Source: Rhodosporidiobolus odoratus (lineage: Eukaryota; Basidiomycota; Microbotryomycetes; Sporidiobolales; Sporidiobolaceae). From it: 64,000 bases of DNA. The position numbers were made by a program, and so were the translations under genes. Shown one piece after another: positions 1 through 21,061 of this stretch. The stretch lies in the NCBI GenBank assembly GCA_034387635.1, contig JAOANU010000008.1:868001-932000 (forward strand). The letters run 5' to 3'. The number at the start of each line of letters is the position of its first letter. Positions within the stretch are counted from its first letter, which is position 1. Below the pieces are notes generated by a model. That model saw only the letters and a program-made list of their open reading frames with translations, was not told the origin of the DNA and made no database searches.

Positions 1-447
1 GCTAGCTGACGAGTCGTGACGCCTCGTTCTAAAACCGGGGGTAATGTTGCACATGTTGCACAGAGTTTAAAACCGGTACAGTCTCGAGCCTAGCAGCGAG
101 TAGAGAGTAGTGTGAGCGACTAAAGAACAAGAGGGGGAATCCGCCTTCCCAGGCTCACTTCCAATCTCCCAACCCGCCGCTCCTATTCATCTCATCTCAT
201 CCTCCGCGCTCCTTACTCCTATCCTCATCTACACACAGAACGCCTTCGGAGCCGGACTCCCTCGTGTTAACGGGGTGTCGTACGTCTCCTTCGAATGCTT
301 CCAATACGTCCCGACAAGTTCTCACACGCCCTATACCCGCAGGCGTTTCGGCGGCAGTGTGGCCCCTCCCCGTTCTTCCCGCAAATAGGAGGTCCTTCTA
401 GAACAACCTAGTTTCCTCTTCCATTTTCTAGTCTTTGCCTCTTCCGT

Positions 448-808
448 TATATCTCGCCTCCCCCGTAGCTCTCTTGGTTCTGTTCTTTGTTGAAATCTCA
501 CCTTATTCTACCCTAGTGTAGTCCCGTCGCTTGCCGAAACCTGCGTGAGAGCTAGACTAAGCCGCCGTCCGTTCAACCTCCCGTTTTCCGCCTTACATTA
601 GATTTCGACCTTTCTCCCGGCTTCCTCTAGCTTAGCACGCCATGACTACCCCCGAAGGTTATATCTCGCCTCGTAGCTCTCTTGGTTCTGTTCTTTGTCG
701 AAATCTTATCTCATTCTACCCTAGTGTAGTCCCGTCGCTTGCTGAAACCTGCGCAAGAGCTAGACTAAGCCGCCGTCCGCTCGACCTCCCGTTTTCTGCC
801 TTACAACC
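448..808. repeat. Imperfect direct repeat, two copies of about 150 bp
   Basis: Two blocks, about 448-602 and 657-808, share a long similar stretch. It starts near TTATATCTCGCCT, passes through CCTAGTGTAGTCCCGTCG and GACTAAGCCGCCGTCCG, and ends near CCCGTTTT. They differ by scattered substitutions and small indels and are separated by about 55 bp. No convincing coding frame lies in them. They could be remains of a repetitive element or a local duplication; I see no terminal repeats or transposase that would decide this. The rest of 1-1000 shows no gene. Confidence 0.6.
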
Positions 809-1021
809 ACCGTCTTTCCCGGCTGCTTGGAATCCTCAGTCTCTCCGCGTAGCTACTGCCCTGCCGTGGAAAAGGGAGCTAGTAAGGACGATGAGACGAC
901 ACATGGTGAGAAGTCTCGTGATTGCAGAGAGAAAAACGTGCTGAGAAGGAAAATCGAAACGAAGCTAACTGTACAACCACAGCCAGGCGAGCAAGGGAAG
1001 GAGGAGGATGCATATGTCTGC

Positions 1022-1104
1022 TCAAACGAGCCTGTTGCCGCCCTGGCTCCTGCGACCCTTGGTCTTGTTCTTGTTGTCTTTTTTGCCCGCCTTCGCCTTG
1101 AAAC
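1022..1104 (-). pseudogene. Fragment of the terminal exon of a fourth Y (Lys-rich secreted) gene
   Basis: Read on the minus strand this stretch gives FKAKAGKKDNKNKTKG..SQGGNRLV-stop. That matches the last exon of the Y gene of copy B (AKAGKKDNKN...KGGNRLA-stop, near 16960-17040). The homology continues past the stop into the 3' flank: GAGCAGACATA and, further on, GTACAGTTAGCTT..TTTCGA are shared with copy B downstream of 17038. There is no upstream exon or acceptor. The fragment joins directly to the 3' flank of copy A, which itself resembles copy C. It therefore looks like a recombination junction between B-like and C-like 3' ends, not a functional gene. Confidence 0.7.
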
Positions 1105-1258: not shown

Positions 1259-3116
1259 TCAGGCGAGCCTGTTGCCACCCTTGTTCTTGCGACCCTTCTT
1301 GGACTCGTTCTTATCGTTGTTCTTCTTGTCGCCCTTGGCCTTGAAAGGAGCGGTCACATGGTCGTCGAAGGCGCGCTACAGCCAGTTGGCAAATTGTCAG
1401 TGAGGCGAAAGGGAAGAAGCGAGTGAATCCGGTGTACCTTTCCCACCGCAGGGGCCGGGGTTTTCACCTTAAGCTCTCCGTGGGCCACCTTTGCCACATG
1501 GTCGTCAAAGGCGCGCTACAGCCAGTCGGCAAATTATCAGTGAGGCGAAAGGGGAGAAGCGAGTGAATCAGGTGTACCTTTCCCACCGCAGGGGCCGGGG
1601 TTTTCACCTTAAGCTCTCCGTGGGCCACCTTTGCCACATGGTCGTCGAAGGCGCGCTACAGCCAGTTGGCAAATTGTCAGTGAGGCGAAAGGGAAGAAGC
1701 GAGTGAATCAGGTGTACCTTTCCCACTGCAGGGGCCGGGGTTTTCACCTCAAGCTCTCCGTGGGCCACCTTTGCCACATGGTCGTCGAAGGCGCGCTACA
1801 GCCAGTTGGCAAATTGTCAGTGAGGCGAAAGGGAAGAAGCGAGTGAATCAGGTGTACCTTTCCCACTGCAGGGGCCGGGGTTTTCACCTCAAGCTCTCCG
1901 TGGGCCACCTTTGCCACATGGTCGTCGAAGGCGCGCTACAGCCAGTTGGCAAATTGTCAGTGAGGCGAAAGGGAAGAAGCGAGTGAATCAGGTGTACCTT
2001 TCCCACTGCAGGGGCCGGGGTTTTCACCTCAAGCTCTCCGTGGGCCACCTTTGCCACATGGTCGTCGAAGGCGCGCTACAGCCAGTTGGCAAATTGTCAG
2101 TGAGGCGAAAGGGAAGAAGCGAGTGAATCAGGTGTACCTTTCCCACTGCAGGGGCCGGGGTTTTCACCTCAAGCTCTCCGTGGGCCACCTTTGCCACATG
2201 GTCGTCGAAGGCGCGCTACAGCCAGTTGGCAAATTGTCAGTGAGGCGAAAGGGAAGAAGCGAGTGAATCAGGTGTACCTTTCCCACTGCAGGGGCCGGGG
2301 TTTTCACCTCAAGCTCTCCGTGGGCCACCTTTGCCACATGGTCGTCGAAGGCGCGCTACAGCCAGTTGGCAAATTGTCAGTGAGGCGAAAGGGAAGAAGC
2401 GAGTGAATCAGGTGTACCTTTCCCACTGCAGGGGCCGGGGTTTTCACCTCAAGCTCTCCGTGGGCCACCTTTGCCACATGGTCGTCAAAGGCGCGCTACA
2501 GCCAGTTGGCAAATTGTCAGTGAGGCGAAAGGGAAGAAGCGAGTGAATCAGGTGTACCTTTCCCACTGCAGGGGCCGGGGTTTTCACCTCAAGCTCTCCG
2601 TGGGCCACCTTTGCCACATGGTCGTCGAAGGCGCGCTACAGCCAGTTGGCAAATTGTCAGTGAGGCGAAAGGGAAGAAGCGAGTGAATCAGGTGTACCTT
2701 TCCCACCGCAGGGGCCGGGGTTTTCACCTCAAGCTCTCCGGGGGCCACCTTTGCCACATGATCGTCGAAGGCGCGCTACAGCCAGTTGGCAAATTGTCAG
2801 TGAGGCGAAAGATTGTCAGTGAGGCGAAAGGGAAGAAGCGAGTGAATCAGGTGTACCTTTCCCACTGCAGGGGCCGGGGTTTTCACCTCAAGCTCTCCGT
2901 GGGCTACCTTTGCCACATGGTCGAAGGCGCGCTACAGCCAGTTGGCAAATTGTCAGTGAGGCGAAAGGGAAGAAGCGAGAGGCAGCGAAAAAGTCAACAT
3001 GGCAATTGCGGAGCGGAGGAAGGGGAAGGAGAACGCACAGCAGGCTCAGCGAGAGCCGGGAGGGCGGAAAGACTGGCGCCGGTGAGGGTAAGAGCGGTGA
3101 GGATGGAGAGACGCAT
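1259..3116 (-). CDS. Y gene, copy A: secreted protein of tandem 25-26-residue cassettes with Gly-Lys-Arg borders
   Basis: Thirteen exons, twelve introns, all phase 0. Exon 1 (3039-3116) encodes a signal peptide, MRLSILTALTLTGASLSALP then ALAEPA. Eleven cassette exons follow, starting at 2931, 2775, 2635 and then every 140 bp down to 1515. Each has 26 codons (25 in the first), beginning RAFDDHVAKVAHGE and ending TPAPAVGK. The terminal exon 1259-1375 begins like a cassette (RAFDDHV), then switches to the family C-terminus KGRKNKGGNRLA. Each cassette intron is 62 nt, GTACAC...CTGTAG (81 nt for the first, which has a 19-bp duplication). Joining exons puts K next to R, so GKR recurs eleven times. 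Such dibasic sites are typical Kex2 targets in fungal secreted repeat precursors; processing is inferred. Predicted product about 349 aa. Exons 2-3 of the B and C relatives are missing: intron 1 fuses straight into the cassette intron. Signal peptide, splice signals and intact frame make it credible; function unknown. Confidence 0.75.
1353..2980 (-). repeat. 140-bp exon-plus-intron tandem array
   Basis: The period is exactly 140 bp from 1375 to 2775, with one 156-bp step (a 19-bp intronic duplication and a 3-bp exonic deletion). The unit is one 78-nt exon and one 62-nt intron of Y copy A. Units are almost identical in both exon and intron. Most differences are silent (TTC/TTT, GCA/GCG); one changes Glu to Lys (GAG/AAG). 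Equal conservation of exon and intron suggests recent unequal crossing-over or gene conversion. The ancestral unit is recognisable in Y copy C: exon 4 (19985-20074), its intron, and the start of exon 5. Confidence 0.9.
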
Positions 3117-3267
3117 GTCGTTGTGGTGTCGAGGTCGAGGTCGAGGTGGTGAGGTGGTGGAGGAGAGCGGAGGAGAGCGGAGGAGAAGCTGAGAGCAGAG
3201 GAAGGTGTGTGAAGAAGAGAGAGAGGCGATATTCCGGTACGCCGATTGTAGCCGTCTCGAGGTAGAA

Positions 3268-3281
3268 TGTTTAGCCAAACA
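3268..3281. promoter_or_regulatory. 14-bp palindrome upstream of Y copy A
   Basis: TGTTTAGCCAAACA, one base from the perfect palindrome TGTTTGGCCAAACA, lies about 150 bp upstream of the copy A start at 3116. It sits in a block of about 100 bp (3240-3345) that is also conserved upstream of copies B and C. A binding site for a dimeric regulator is an inference. Confidence 0.55.
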
Positions 3282-3505
3282 TCGCAATATGAATTCCGCC
3301 GGCGGTTGGAAACCAAATCTGGGTTCGGTCCGAGGTGGTCCTGCTACGGAGTGTCGCGGAGGTGATTCCTGAATGGACCGCATGAGCCAAAGGAAGCGTT
3401 GACTGATTCACCCCAGGCGGGAAAAGCGATGAATCATGGAAGCATCGAGGAGGGGAAGCATGAATGCTGAGGTGAAAATGATGGCAGTGCATTCACCTCG
3501 AGCTG

Positions 3506-5840: not shown

Positions 5841-8800
5841 CTAATCCCACAACTTGATGAGGCCGTCCCAAGACGAGGTGATGAGTTTACTCTGCGCGAC
5901 GCAAAAGGAAACAGCCAGAAACGGGGTCAGCTCAGTCCTTGGCGAACATGAACCCACAGGCGGGGCTCACGACGAGACAGAGGCAGGGAGAAGGAACGAG
6001 AGCGGAAGAGGAAGAAGCAAAAACAACGTACCGTCTCATGGGGCAACCACTCATGCCCAATGATTACCTGTTTATGAGCCCTATTCAACCTCCCCACGAT
6101 CCGACTCGACTTGAAGTCCCAAAAGACCATATTTCCCTGTCCATCTCCGGAACTGAGGAATCGACCATCGGGACTGAAGCGAGGTTCGCAGGCATAACCG
6201 GCGATGGTGTGACCTGCGAAACGTTTTTTGCGCTGTAGGTCATGCACGTTAGGTTGAGGAGAAGGAACGGATGGATGAAAGAGGGGTATCGAGCGGGGGC
6301 GGTATCAGTCAACGTCCACTGACGGGTGGGAAGATGAGAAAAGCGTACGTTCTGCTTGAACGTGTCAGCTCCGAACAGCAAGATCTGGTTGTCAAGCGAA
6401 GTTGCCGCGAGCCACTTGCCTGCAATAGCCGAGAGAACGAAAGATAACATCAGAAAAAGCAGGTTCAACCCGCATGGTCGACTCATACGAAAAGTCAAAC
6501 AACGCAAACGCACCATTCGGATGAACCCCGACAGCCGGCATACTATGCATAGCCGGATCGGCAATCAATTTGATCGGTACGGGAATATCGAAATCCCAAA
6601 CCCTCATAGTCTTGTCATCACTAGTCGTAACGAATCGTCGATTTTCATCCACAAACGTAATCGTGTTGACCGGTCCTAGGTGTTGATCGTATTCTTGGGT
6701 AATCTGGTTCGAACGGATGTCGTACTACCCAACGAATGAAGAGTGAGATGCGAGTGTGGGTGAGGTGGGAGGAGACGTGGACGGAAGACGCACCTGGATA
6801 ACCTTCTTGTCACTCATACCCGCCAAGAACGTATGCTGTTGTTCCGGATGGAACTTGATGCAATACGGAATCTTGCCATTCGAGAAAGCGGCTTTGCACT
6901 GACCTACCAGTCGCCACACAAGAAAGAAAAAAGGAGGGGTCAGCAATCTAGCTCGTTCGCACACGCAACGGAGCAGGGAAAGGAATGAACGCACCCGTCT
7001 CGGTATCCCACAGCTTCATCTGTCGATCAAAAGCGGCACTGAGGAATTCACCTCCAGAATTGTTGAACTCGACATCGTGAACGGCTTTCGAGTGACCCAT
7101 GAAAGTACGAAGACATTTCCCTTCGCGGTAGATGTCCCAGAGCTACTCGATAGTTTGCAGAAGTTCGAGTTCGCCGTCGGTTATAGTCAGCTAACAGAGC
7201 GACGAAAGGGCCGAGGGGTAAGATGACAACGCACCTTGATCCTCGTATCCAAACTAGCACTAAGAACCATATGTCCACTAGTAGGGAACAACCTGATCCG
7301 ACTAACTCCCTTTGTGTGGCCACTCCAGGTATGAATGCATTTCTTGGGAACGAAAGATTCGATGCCATCGTCCAGAGATCGGGGTTTGTCGAGTCGTTCA
7401 GCCGAGGTGGGGAGGAGGATGTCGGCGGAAGTGGGGATGGAGAGGTAGGTTCGACCGAGGTAGTCGTGCGTTTCTTTGGCTGTGGGTCGCGCGAGGGAGG
7501 AGGAGGAGAGCCAGGGCAAGCGCGAAGTAGAGAGACGCGGTAGACAGGCAGGCAGAGGACGAGCGAGGCGCAGAATCAGTAAGAGACTGGTCCATGAGAA
7601 AGCGATTATGAGATACGCACCATGCAACACACTCTTCTCCTCACCCCACCCAACCTCCTTCCCATTCCTCGCCTCCATCTCCTTCTTCCTCCTCTGCTCC
7701 TTATTCAACAACGGTCCACCATGTTCCTCCTGCCACTCGTACTCTTCCTGAGTCGGCACCGCCGGGACATTCGACTCGCCGTCCCAGCCCGCCCACGGTC
7801 CCAGGTATTCCCTCTGTTCCTTCTTCTCCTTCTTAGCCTTCTTCGCCGGTTGAGGTCCTTCTTCCTCGTCCCCTTCCGCAGTCTCATTCTCTCCCGCTCC
7901 CTCTGCCTCACCCTCTCCTTCCGCTCCCTCCTCTTCATCATCCGGATCGTCAAACTCCCCCAACCTCCCCTTCGCCTTGCGCTTCCTCCTAATCTCCTTA
8001 ACCTCCTTCCTACTCCTCTTGAAATCACTAACCAACACTCCCCCATTCTGGTACGCCGCATGAACGTTTCCAGAGAATTCGGATACGAGACCGTTGGAGG
8101 AAGTGGAGAGGGAGCCGGAGGCGATGGAGGGGTTGGCGGCGTAACCTAGGACATGGAAGGAACGTTGTTGTTCGGCGAAGGTTTGCGCAGAGAAGTGTTG
8201 TTGTTCGACGTGACCTGCGGATGGGTAGGCGAGAGCAACATAGGAGTCAATCAGCATGAACGACCGGGTTTTTTCTTTCTGCCTCTGCAGGGAATGACTG
8301 GGATTTGCCGCCAGTACCACTTCGCGGAAAGGTCGCACAAACGCCTCATAAGAGCACAAAGAGCGTGTCGTCTAATTCAGGTCAGGCGGAAAGACAAAGG
8401 TCGGGTACCGCCAGCTCTGACTGGTGCCCCGAAGGTGAAAGTAAGAGGGCGATGCAAGAGGGAAAGAGCCTCACCGGTCAAGGCATTCTGTCTCTCGAGT
8501 CTCTCGTCGTCCCACGGGTTCTTGGGACCCTGTACAGGTGCGGTAAGAGCTGAATGAGGAGCATTGTAGAAAATGACGGAGGTGTTGGAGTGAGGGAGGA
8601 GGGAGGAGGGGGCGGAGGGGTCGAACTGGGCGGTGGGGTCGTCGAAGCAAGGGTCAGTGTGCTACGTGGAACCGAAGAGGGCGTGGGAACTGGGCGTACT
8701 TGAGCAATCACTTCAGGTCTGGCATCGACCAGTGCATCCGGTTTGTCGCCTTGTCTCGCTCCGGCATGGTGTTCCTTGGCTTCCTGTTGCACTTGCTTAA

Positions 8801-15372: not shown

Positions 15373-17040
15373 ATGCGCTTCTCCATCCTCACCGCTCTTA
15401 CCCTTGCCGGTGCTAGTCTTTCCGCCCTCCCTGCCCTCGCTGAGCCTGCTGCGCGTCTCAATCCGTTTCTTCCGCCATGTTACATCAATACTGACTTTTT
15501 CGCGGCCTCTCCACAGCAACCTCGCCCCACCGGCATCTCCCTTCTAGAGGATCTCCCGGTTCTGAAAGTCGTTCGGCCGCTCGTCAAGCCCGGTAAACAG
15601 GAAAAGACGCAGCCCAAGCAGCAGGGAAAGACCAAGGCGAAGTCGGGCAAGGTACATCTCTTTCCTCTTTGCCGTCGAGTGATGCTAGCGTGGCTGACTG
15701 ACGGCACACTGTTCACAGAGCTACAAGACCAAGTCCAGCAACATTCAGAAGGTGAGTCTGCCTTTCCTTCTTCTCGCTTTGCTCTACCGAGTGCTGATCC
15801 CTCCGTAACGACCACAGGACGAGAGGAAGACTAAGAAGGCCACGGCCGACGATGAGAGGCATTCGAACAAGGCGGTTCCGGCCCTCGTGCTGGGAAAGGT
15901 TCGTTCTACACCTTCTTTCCTTCTTTCTTCACCTCCGTTCCCCGTCTGATGCAGCCCTCTGTTGCACACTCTCTCAGCGTGCCGCCAAGGCTGACAAGAA
16001 GAATGGTGCTGCCAAGTCCGAAGAGCACGAGGTAAAGAAGGTGCGCATTTCGCTTTCTTCCCTCGCCCCTCTATCCGATCGCCCGCTGACTCGGGACGAT
16101 CGCTCACAGGACGAGAAGAAGACCAAGGGTGAAACCAAGAAGGTCGAAAAGGTCAGCCCTTCGCCCAGTGTCCTTCCAGCTGCCATCATACTTACCTGCT
16201 CGACATCGACCTTTGCAGGAGGAGAAGAAGGAGACCAAAGCTGCCCCGCCGGTTGACAAGAAGAAGGTTCCCGCCGTCGCTCTTGGCAAGGTCCGTCTTT
16301 CTCGCCTCGTCTTTATCCCATGCTCCTTATTGACTGACCTGACTTCCCGCAGCGCGCGAAGGAACAGAAGAAGGGCGGTGCGACGAAGTCTGAAGAGCGC
16401 GAGGTGAAGAAGGTGAGGCTGCCCCTGCTCGTCCACTCGGCTTCACAGTATCTGACTGTGAGTTGGTGACTCTGCAGGACGAGAAGATGGCGAATCGCGA
16501 GACCAAAGGCGAGACCAAGGCGGTTCAGAAGGTGCGAGCGAAGCTCGTCACTATCCATTGTCACAAACGCCTTCCATTGACGGTTTCTCTTCTTCCTGAA
16601 TTGTGTAGGATGAGAAGAAGACTCAGGCCGGCGCCAAGAAGGAGACCAAAGAGGTCGAGAAGGTGCGGATCTTTTCTTCATGACCGTTACCTTCCCTACT
16701 GTCGAGGATGCTCTGACGCCTTCTGATCGTACCATCTGCAGGACGAGAAGAAGGAGATGAAGGCTGCTCCTGCTGCCGCCCACAAGGCCAAGGTCCCGGA
16801 CGTCGCTCTCGGAAAGGTCCGCTTCTCTCCTTCATTGTGCCTTTTCCCGACTTCAATGCTAACCCGCGTGTTTTGTTATCTTAGCGCGCTTCTCCCACTC
16901 CTCTCCTCGCTGCTGGCCCCATCAAAGTCGCCAACCCCTTGGCCATTCTTGCCTCCAAGGCCAAGGCGGGCAAGAAGGACAACAAGAACCCGAACAAGAC
17001 CAAGAGCCGCAAGAACAAGGGCGGCAACAGGCTCGCTTGA
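15373..17040 (+). CDS. Y gene, copy B: secreted Lys/Glu-rich protein of many tiny exons
   Basis: Twelve exons, all joined in phase 0: 15373-15450, 15517-15651, 15719-15751, 15818-15898, 15978-16040, 16110-16151, 16219-16290, 16353-16412, 16478-16531, 16609-16662, 16742-16816 and 16885-17040; about 300 aa. Exon 1 is a signal peptide (MRFSILTALTLAGASLSALP). Exon 2 starts QPRPTGISLLEDLPVLK. Later exons nearly all begin DEKK or EEKK, or RA, and end in Lys. Three junctions create LGK-RA. The C-terminus is KSRKNKGGNRLA. The product is extremely Lys/Glu-rich, hydrophilic and presumably disordered after export. Intron 1 starts with GC where A and C have GT. It is 66 nt, has no stop and is in frame, so retention would simply add 22 residues. 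Function unknown; Kex2-like processing at Lys-Arg is an inference. Confidence 0.82.
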
Positions 17041-18473
17041 GCAGACATAGGCTTTTCTCCTGCTCCCTTCTCGTCTGACTCTGGTCGTACAGTTAGCTTT
17101 GTTTCGACTTTCTTTCCGGTCCCCTTTTCACTCTGCAATTAGGATGATGTTCCCCGCGTCTCGATGCATCTCGCTGCCACCTGCCTGTCGGCTGGGAGCA
17201 CAATACCGAAAGGATACTGGGAAAGCAGTGGCTTATGGAGAGACTGAGGATTTCACGTAACCTGAAAAGAGGCGGTCACTAGGATGCGGCTTCTGCCTTC
17301 CCTTCGCAACTGATACAGCTCCTACACCGCAATCCTACACAAAGGTTTGTACCTTCGCTAGTCCCTGCCACGTCCTTTTCTCAGACAGCGTCGCCCTGTT
17401 CCGCTCGAAACATTTGCAAAGGAGATGGCGCGCGAAAAGGGTGCACAGGTTTTAGCGATTGATCTGGTGAACCGCCCTGAGCCTCAGGCTAGACCAGGAG
17501 GAGCCCTGTAACTCTCTAGCCACGGCCTGGTGCAGGTTACGGACCCGACTTTGCTCTTGCTCATGTTCATCTTCTTTCTCATCTAACACGCTCGATCTCG
17601 TCGTACACCCGCAAACACGACTCGGACGACCTAAAACACTCGCTTTGTACCGGCACAGCACGTCCTATCCTCACCCACAGCGCCGTTGGCGATGCCGGCT
17701 CCCTCCTCCGACTCCCTTGGCCACCGTTGAGTCACTCGCGCGAGGCCCCACACCGACTTGCCTCTGCCACTGTACGACACCGATTTCGACGTCTAGCGGA
17801 TTGGGCTAGGGGGGGCTGGGTCTAGCTGGCGAGGTTGCATCGGTCGGAAGGTGGCCTCGTCCGTTTGGATGGATGTACTCGACAACTCCGCCGAAGGACC
17901 GCAGACCAGCGTACCCTCCAGCGGGAGCATCGCCTACTCGGCTGACCGGAGCTGCTGGTAGCGAGATGGAGCATTGGAAGCATAGGCGGAGAAGATTCCC
18001 CTATGGCTGGGTCATTTGGCCTCATGCCGGACTCCGCTCGACGGGGTCCTGCATAGCCTCGTCGATCTCCGTCGTGATCATCCTCATCCTCTGCTGGACC
18101 TCCGTGACAATCCCGTGGAACATCCGACTCCGTTTCCCCCTTGCTTCACCAGTTTGCTTGCTGGCTTTGGCGTTGTCTCCTTGTCCTCCCGTCAACTCAC
18201 TTGTTCCGCCCAGCGTACTCGACTCGCTTCCGCTTCGTCCGACAACCCTGCGCACCTCGCTTCTACCGCCTGCAAATTCCGCCTTCTCTTCGACCCTGCG
18301 ATTTGCCAGCCCAATTTGGCGTGCAACGCCTCTCTTCATCGCACTCGCCAGACTTTCAAGGTGCGCGGTTCTCGTCCCGTCGACAGTGCAGAAGCCGTGC
18401 CAGGTGCTGACTGACAACACAGACTACATCTTCCACCGCGACCACAGTCTCCCCTTTGACGTACCGTTCTGTC
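17041..18473. other. 1.4-kb spacer between modules B and C, no clear gene
   Basis: The first 100 bp is the copy B 3' flank. The rest holds overlapping short frames on both strands (for example around 17873-18470) without domains or a consistent splice pattern. The part from about 18140 is pyrimidine-rich on the plus strand, as upstream of X copy B. Confidence 0.4.
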
Positions 18474-19513: not shown

Positions 19514-21061
19514 ATGCGCTTCTCGATCCTTACCGCACTCACCCTCGCCGGTGCCAGTCTGTCCGCCGTCCCCGCTCTCGCTGAGCCTGCTGTGCGTTTC
19601 CGTTCTTCTTTTTCGCTATGTTACATGAGTCCTGATTTTTCTCGCCGTCGCTCTACAGCAACCCCGCCCCACCGGCCTCTCCATCTTCGAAGACCTTCCG
19701 GTACTGAAGTCTGCCGGACCACTCTTCAAGCCCGGTAAGCAGGGCAAGGAAGGGAAGACGAAGGCCAAGTCGACCAAGGTACGTTTCTTCCCTCCCGTGT
19801 TTACCTTTGCCCACGTTAACCCTTGTAACCTGGTCCACAGACCAAGAAGACCAAGTCTAGCGGCGCTAAGAAGGAGAAGAAGAACGGTGCGAGGTCTGAG
19901 GAACGCCAGGTTCAGAAGGTAAGCCTACCTTCCTTATCCTCATCCCGTGTCTGCCAAGTGCTGACCCGTTGACTGCGCCTACAGGACGAGAAGAAAACCA
20001 AGAAAAAGGCCCCTGAGGCAAAGGTGTCCCACGGAGAGGTTGAGGTGGAAACCCCGGCCCTTGCACTGGGAAAGGTACACCACAATCATCCGCTTCTTCC
20101 TTTCACCTCACTAACAACTCGCCGAGTGGCTGTAGCGCGCCAAGGCTGACGACAAGAAAGGCCCTACCAAGTCGGGAGAGCGCGAGGTGAAGAAGGTACG
20201 GACGCATCTCGCTCTCTCCGCCTCTTCAACACTAACTCGCTTGAATACGCAGGACGAGAAGAAGACTAAGGGCGACACCAAGAAGGTGGAAAAGGTATAT
20301 ACTGCCTCGACTGCGTTACTCGTTCTCAGCAAGCTGATATACATGTCACCCACTGACGCAGGAGGAGAAGAAGGAGACAAAGGCTACTCCGGCAGTCGAC
20401 AAGAAGAAGGTCCCCGCTGTTACCCTCGGCAAGGTCCGTCGGTTCTCCTTGACGCTTGTCCATCGTTCTGCGAAGCTCACTAGGCTCTGATGCTACAGCG
20501 CGCGAAGGAACAGAAGAAGGGCGGTACCACAAAATCGGAGGAGCGCGAGGTGAAGAAGGTACTGCCTCAATTCAATCCTCTGCCTTGCTTGGGGGCTTGC
20601 TGACGAGTACGTGGTGGCGATGCAGGATGAGAAGAAGATCAAGGGCGAGACTAAGAAAGACACGAAGAAGGTCGAGAAGGTGCGCATTTTCTTCTGCTCC
20701 TAATAATACACCGACCTCAGCCACGCTAGATCTGACTCCTTCGCGGCGGTTCACTTCCTCCAGGATGAGAAGAAGGGCACGAAGGGCACTCCTGCCGCCG
20801 TCCACAAAGCTAAGGTTCCGGCCGTCCCCCTCGGAAAGGTTCGTCTACCTTTCTCCTTCACTTTACCTCTTCCCGACTTGACGCTAACCCGCGTCTGCTT
20901 CCATCTAGCGCGCTTCTCCTACGCCGCTCCTCGCCGTTGGCCCCATCAAGGTCGTCAACCCCATGGCCACCCCTTCTTCCAGGGCCAAGGGCGACAAGAA
21001 TAACAACGACAACAAGTCCAAGAAGGGTCGCAAGAACAAGGGCGGCAACAGGCTCGCCTGA
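19514..21061 (+). CDS. Y gene, copy C: secreted Lys/Glu-rich protein of many tiny exons
   Basis: Eleven exons, all phase 0: 19514-19591, 19659-19778, 19841-19918, 19985-20074, 20136-20195, 20253-20294, 20362-20433, 20499-20558, 20626-20679, 20764-20838 and 20909-21061; about 293 aa. The signal peptide (MRFSILTALTLAGASLSAVP) is almost identical to copies A and B. Exon 4 ends AKVSHGEVEVETPALALGK, the recognisable ancestor of the copy A cassette. Exon 5 starts RAKADDKKG. Lys-Arg is formed at the LGK-RA junctions after exons 4, 7 and 10. The C-terminus is KGRKNKGGNRLA. All introns are GT-AG and 57-84 nt. The 3' flank closely matches that of copy A. Biological role unknown. Confidence 0.85.

Follow-up and report, generated by a model that had tools for sequence, protein, structure and literature searches.

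A tandem array of 140-bp exon-intron cassettes in Rhodosporidiobolus odoratus and its predicted product, a candidate KEX2-processed secreted precursor

Coding arrays with introns in the repeat unit are already known in animals. A 1988 article by Davis et al. is said, from its title, to concern a schistosome gene in which "tandemly repeated exons" encode 81-base repeats. The schistosome micro-exon genes, above all 10-3/MEG-4 with its tandem 81-base exons, as portrayed in PMC4015677, PMC10526429, and PMC3961193, resemble the gene analyzed here (gene A) in encoding secreted products (predicted for gene A) from tandem symmetric exons, with length changes that are safe for the frame. They differ in being animal genes with introns of up to 5 kb and with exon skipping shown by transcripts, whereas gene A has 62-nt introns within a 140-bp unit, and the likeness is one of description. 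Human LPA KIV-2 is likewise a coding variable-number tandem repeat (VNTR) that carries introns in its unit and varies by whole units; that unit, however, is described as spanning 5.6 kb and comprising two exons together with an intron of 4 kb, compared to 140 bp and one exon in gene A (PMC6314250). Pacifastin precursors, as surveyed in PMC2689174, share with the predicted product of gene A a secreted multipeptide design, growth by exon duplication, and, in most insect members, dibasic sites, but their units are inhibitor domains, while those of gene A are near identical with a KR at each junction. The same survey describes tapp-1 of Trichoplax, with 88 exons, two per domain, and only one putative dibasic site. 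Wasp nasonin-6, a further animal case, has one exon per domain and is without processing sites.

Among fungal systems, the closest are the KEX2-processed repeat proteins (KEPs), which are described as having a signal peptide (in gene A a predicted one) followed, as in gene A, by many near-identical blocks separated by KR (PMC6339444). Gene A is unlike KEPs as described in PMC6339444, PMC7329392, and PMC9769878 in that its repeats are separate exons, with an intron interrupting every KR. Neither "intron" nor "exon" appears in the main text of two KEP surveys (PMC6339444 and PMC7329392). In PMC9769878, "intron" occurs once, where cDNA served as the source of KEP sequences free of introns; intron-bearing KEP genes are therefore known, and the layout of one exon per repeat was not found in the text covered. 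The last article also describes expression of other KEPs in a laboratory Pichia (Komagataella) strain. The SP7-like effectors, as described in PMC11333574, are secreted proteins with hydrophilic repeats, a conserved motif at the unit end, and an intron before the first repeat; they act in plant nuclei and are restricted to Glomeromycotina, and an intron per repeat does not figure in their description; the likeness is again one of description. In gene A, intron 1 also precedes the first repeat, but an intron follows every repeat too, and the sole relative identified comes from a basidiomycete, R. odoratus itself. Among the literature matches listed, subscription literature being mostly outside the search, there was no fungal gene in which every repeat carries an intron, nor did any of those matches join a minisatellite of 140 bp to a single exon, a single intron, and a single KEX2 peptide. 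The initial annotation had called an array with an intron in every unit unusual; for fungi, this fits the literature searched, while the general kind is already represented by LPA KIV-2 and schistosome 10-3.

The window analyzed here is the whole 64,000-nt stretch of DNA at C8:868001-932000, taken from a genome of 24.8 Mb in 45 contigs. Gene A occupies window positions 1259..3116 on the minus strand, and its 13 exons encode a predicted secreted repeat protein of 349 aa. In a model rederived by script, the ATG lies at 3116 and the stop codon ends at 1259, and the spliced coding sequence of 1,050 nt is open, its sole stop being terminal. Exon 1 (3039..3116, 78 nt) is predicted from hydropathy to encode a signal peptide, MRLSILTALTLTGASLSALPALAEPA; the hydropathy maximum covers residues 5 to 19, and the hydrophobic N-terminal stretch, judged by eye together with hydropathy, ends in ALA|EP. 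Intron 1 (2932..3038, 107 nt, GTGCGT...CTGTAG) closes with 48 nt that match the cassette intron. The array itself (1376..2931) consists of 11 exon-plus-intron cassettes, the first of 75 + 81 nt (exon 2 and intron 2) and the other ten, comprising exons 3 to 12, of 78 + 62 nt. Eleven cassettes of 78 + 62 nt with a first exon of 75 nt had initially been annotated on the minus strand; ten cassettes are exactly of that size and the 75-nt exon holds, but the first cassette intron has 81 nt rather than 62 because of a 19-bp tandem duplication (2793..2830), which doubles a CTGAC branch-point-like motif. The GT-AG borders and phase 0 that had been ascribed to the introns were found in 12 of 12, the phase following from the lengths of the exons, all 13 of which are multiples of three. 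The terminal exon (1259..1375, 117 nt) encodes RAFDDHV and a basic tail ending in KKGRKNKGGNRLA before the stop; its protein sequence is identical in a sister gene (gene B), and the tail is similar in two further paralogues (genes C and D). The frame thus runs, as first described, from a signal exon to a family-typical C terminus, both ends being common to B, C, D, and a R. odoratus protein, P0001.

The 5' flank of gene A (3117..3503, minus strand) is common to gene B, with 382 of 387 positions (98.7%) identical, and is shared more weakly with C (73% of aligned bases) and D (63%); one block within it, GCAGGACCACCTCGGNCCGAACCCAGATTTG, is alike in A and C and less so in D. Just 3' of the stop, at 921..1100 on the minus strand, lies the relic of a second 3' end of the gene C type (80.7% DNA match to window 16956-17139), which is also present in B. 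From this, the A/B locus seems to have arisen by the joining of a D-like tail to a C-like one.

Comparison of the gene with itself at lags of 100 to 200 gave a best lag of 140, with 100% identity over 500 bp, while the control maxima over the same lags were 0.356 for 200 shuffles under a first-order Markov model and 0.394 for 63 further stretches taken from the window. The repeat signal of gene A is far above chance. The 140-bp period was also recovered by Tandem Repeats Finder (11.5 copies, 95% matches), in agreement with the initial annotation. Six cassettes of gene A (3 and 5 to 9) are identical across all 140 bp, exon and intron. Among the 21 full-size cassettes compared (10 of the 11 in A and 11 of the 13 in B), segregating sites made up 5 of 62 intron nucleotides and 6 of 78 exon nucleotides, and nucleotide diversity (pi) within A was 0.013 for introns and 0.020 for exons. 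The introns are, as had been claimed, about as well conserved as the exons, and such parallel variation is expected if the whole unit is copied.

The predicted splicing of gene A was examined computationally. Retention of any single intron leads to an early stop (12/12), and every skip of a contiguous block of cassettes in A stays in frame (66/66). Each of the tandem units, 11 in A and 13 in B, holds a whole exon and its intron. All 12 introns contain a CTRAY motif, the A of which lies 21 nt before the 3' end. The textbook donor is GTRAGT, from which the cassette donor of gene A, AAG|GTACAC, deviates; donors are varied in C and D too, and intron 4 of D likewise begins with GTACAC. Each of the 11 cassettes of A also contains, 9 nt upstream of GTACAC, a cryptic donor in the same frame, GTGGGA. 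It is the less likely main donor, as D has no GT at that place and the LGK| donor is common to C and D.

A feature missed by the initial annotation is the position of the KR dipeptides, all of which straddle predicted splice junctions: 11/11 in A, 3/3 in C, and 3/3 in D. Gene C (15373..17040, plus strand; 12 exons, 300 aa) and gene D (19514..21061, plus strand; 11 exons, 293 aa) have all their introns in phase 0, with exon borders that were set by eye and then checked by script, and KR is found in each solely at three LGK|R junctions. The motif is (L/V)GK|RA throughout A, C, and D, none of which contains RR, and P0001 also has three LGKRA sites and no RR. Given the lysine residues present, the probability that all KR would fall on junctions by chance is ∼0.002 in each of C and D, two genes that are related. 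The exons of C and D, all but the first and last, end in AAG, and the AAG|GT donor context by itself leads one to expect a lysine there; a splicing constraint may therefore account for half of the coincidence between KR and junctions. Since the lysine is partly an effect of splice context, the conserved arginine counts most.

The KEP pipeline requires at least four fragments at KR/RR sites, at least three of them similar, covering at least 15% of the protein (PMC6339444). Gene A yields 12 fragments, ten of which resemble the 26-mer (similarity assessed by eye) and cover ∼74% of the 349 aa. A KEX2-type gene is present in the genome, where Peptidase_S8 and P_proprotein frames adjoin on C3, and accounts of KEPs indicate that their peptides tend to be longer in basidiomycete yeasts, which was counted toward KEX2 processing here. 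Against such processing, no XA or XP dipeptide of the STE13 type follows KR in the fragments of A. On balance, the features of the gene suggest that gene A probably encodes a spliced, KEX2-processed secreted precursor in which one exon corresponds to one 26-residue peptide. If the gene is expressed and spliced as predicted, the final lysine of each cassette and the first arginine of the next exon would form a KR site once spliced, and the Golgi protease KEX2 would cut the secreted precursor once per cassette junction. Cleavage would release ten copies of AFDDHVAKVA(H/P)GEL(E/K)VKTPAPAVGKR (∼24 aa without KR), with AFDDHVAKVAHGELEVKTPAPAVG as the expected free peptide, and also a slightly different first peptide and the basic C-terminal tail. 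The initial annotation had mentioned coding VNTRs as common in fungal surface genes; for gene A, the GK|RA junctions speak more for a secreted precursor cleaved by KEX2. The released peptides might serve in signaling or at the surface, where the Rep1 peptides of Ustilago are described as forming fibrils (PMC4617103). In such a locus, exon, minisatellite unit, and peptide would coincide in compact form.

An alternative is that the protein is secreted but left uncut, as a repetitive component of the wall or surface, with each junctional KR a by-product of the AAG|GT context and of CGC after the acceptor. The AAG ends of the internal exons of C and D fit this explanation, and there is precedent for a fungus being coated by secreted repeat proteins, an example being Rsp3 of Ustilago (PMC5923269). 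It accounts less well for the restriction of KR to (L/V)GKRA in A, C, D, and P0001, at predicted junctions in the first three, or for the retention of (L/V)GKRA while the remainder of the unit changed; moreover, in A, C, and D no part of the protein beyond the signal reaches the hydropathy of the signal itself. We regard an uncleaved protein as possible but rather doubtful and favor the KEX2-processed precursor.

The number of cassettes in gene A can be compared with that in its paralogue, gene B (C8 846563-848679, minus strand), which has 13 cassettes and lies 20.6 kb away (22.7 kb from start to start). Signal exon, terminal exon, and flanks are 97.8 to 99.1% identical by part; beyond the 5' flank given above, exon 1 plus intron 1 agree at 181 of 185 positions and the last exon plus 3' flank at 565 of 570 (99.1%). 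Such near-identical flanks indicate a recent segmental duplication, after which the arrays diverged by two whole units. The initial annotation had predicted that protein length could change in 26-residue steps by unequal crossing-over; paralogues of 11 and 13 cassettes within one genome provide a natural pair of this kind, and unequal exchange gains support from it. Because all units share the same phase, unequal exchange or conversion would add or remove whole peptides while frame and splicing stayed intact, and the same exchange would homogenize exons and introns together.

Consistent with the last expectation, mean differences per 140 bp were 2.4 within A and 1.8 within B but 3.8 between the two genes, a contrast reached by 0 of 5,000 permutations of the A and B labels (full-size cassettes only, 10/11 and 11/13, which are not independent of one another). 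Identical cassette pairs numbered 15 in A, 10 in B, and 0 between them. The cassettes are homogenized within each gene. A mark at the array edge is common to both, in that the first cassette is without one Asp codon. The sister arrays offer a measure of the rate at which whole exon-intron units are gained and homogenized, and they let one ask whether introns stabilize or promote exchange and whether the cell makes use of KEX2 sites that splicing creates.

In gene B, cassette 4 (positions 5937-6077 of C8 842001-851000) has a G inserted where its exon meets its intron, in the donor. With the standard cassette 4 donor, the frame shifts and a stop is reached at codon 145; a computed transcript minus cassette 4 is open over 375 residues, with 12 KR sites. 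The extra G may be a sequencing error, or it may mark either a dead copy of the gene or an exon that is skipped and thereby tolerated. A bolder proposal is that the array acts as a dose dial: the number of peptide copies per precursor would be set both by unequal exchange and by skipping of cassettes in the mRNA, with KEX2 sites assembled only by splicing. We consider this quite unlikely; if it were true, skipping would let gene B tolerate its frame-shifting cassette.

The frameshift under standard splicing in B, the relic 3' end behind both A and B, and the several segmental duplications nearby would also fit an ordinary minisatellite in a decayed gene copy, for which splicing and protein no longer matter. 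Against such decay, the spliced sequence of A is open over 1,050 nt, and the only indel within the cassette exons is a whole codon, the 19-bp indel being intronic and the extra base of B lying at an exon-intron border. In addition, silent diversity exceeds amino acid diversity within both genes (0.053 versus 0.009 in A and 0.025 versus 0.012 in B, a weak contrast with only 6 segregating exon sites), and the 5' flank is partly common to C and D. Decay is thus very unlikely to explain gene A. That the counts of 11 and 13 are artifacts of a collapsed or expanded repeat in a real gene is very improbable, for although the six identical 140-bp cassettes of A could not be counted by short reads, both arrays carry distinct cassette variants that differ between A and B, and the two genes, with different outer flanks on one 1.03-Mb contig, do not look like adjacent alleles. 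Cassette-type genes are probably overlooked easily by gene prediction and short-read assembly.

Upstream of gene B, C8 849064-850350 is a 91.5% copy of window 6342-7630, a segment that overlaps a WD40-like frame (26.7 bits, just below the Pfam cut-off of 27). Further segmental duplications join C8 843884-844616 with 850491-851223 (100%) and 861339-861758 with window 234-657 (97%). From its sequence, the A/B neighborhood looks prone to recombination. A Pfam scan made for context covered 10 of the 173 open reading frames listed for the window and gave a match in 5 of the 10.

Homology searches with protein A gave no relative in other genomes at an E value of ≤0.001 among 8,000 scored candidates, which counts against the proposed precursor. 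Searches with D and with an alignment of C, P0001, D, and A had P0001 of R. odoratus as their sole match, and a Pfam scan of P0001 gave no match. The matches of protein A to SBDS_C, DUF4290, GATase_5, and Pyocin_S were weak and for the whole protein only, with no stretch passing alone; they were discounted because they read as sums over a repeated chance match. A C16 match (E value of 0.39, 23%) was discounted as chance. At the DNA level, the 140-bp unit had at least 28 matches in the genome, and those listed all lie in A, B, and D of one cluster on C8. Introner-like elements are similar introns scattered among unrelated genes. An insertion of that type was rejected here, since exon and intron repeat together and the matches are confined to A, B, and D.

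The match in gene D is a single-copy relative of the cassette, made up of intron 4 and the 57 nt of exon 4 that precede it (20018..20135, plus strand; 83 to 86% DNA match to the A/B cassettes); gene C is unlike D in this region. Intron 4 of D is identical to the cassette intron at 50 of 61 aligned bases. The exon portion differs at 5 of 57 bases, 5 of the differences changing an amino acid and 0 being silent; although the numbers are small, they do not suggest that purifying selection has acted on the peptide between A and D, a further point against the proposed precursor. The cassette may have been amplified from a D-like exon, or D may have gained a cassette from an array by conversion.

Gene C differs from the other paralogues in its intron 1, which is GC-AG, whereas A, B, and D have GT-AG there. 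P0001 is close to gene C (97% in the alignment, 85% by BLASTP), and exon 3 of C is 17 residues shorter than its counterpart in P0001. After EEREVKK, P0001 has 22 extra residues where gene C has its intron 8. The deposited sequence of P0001 therefore likely includes a translated intron, an annotation slip.
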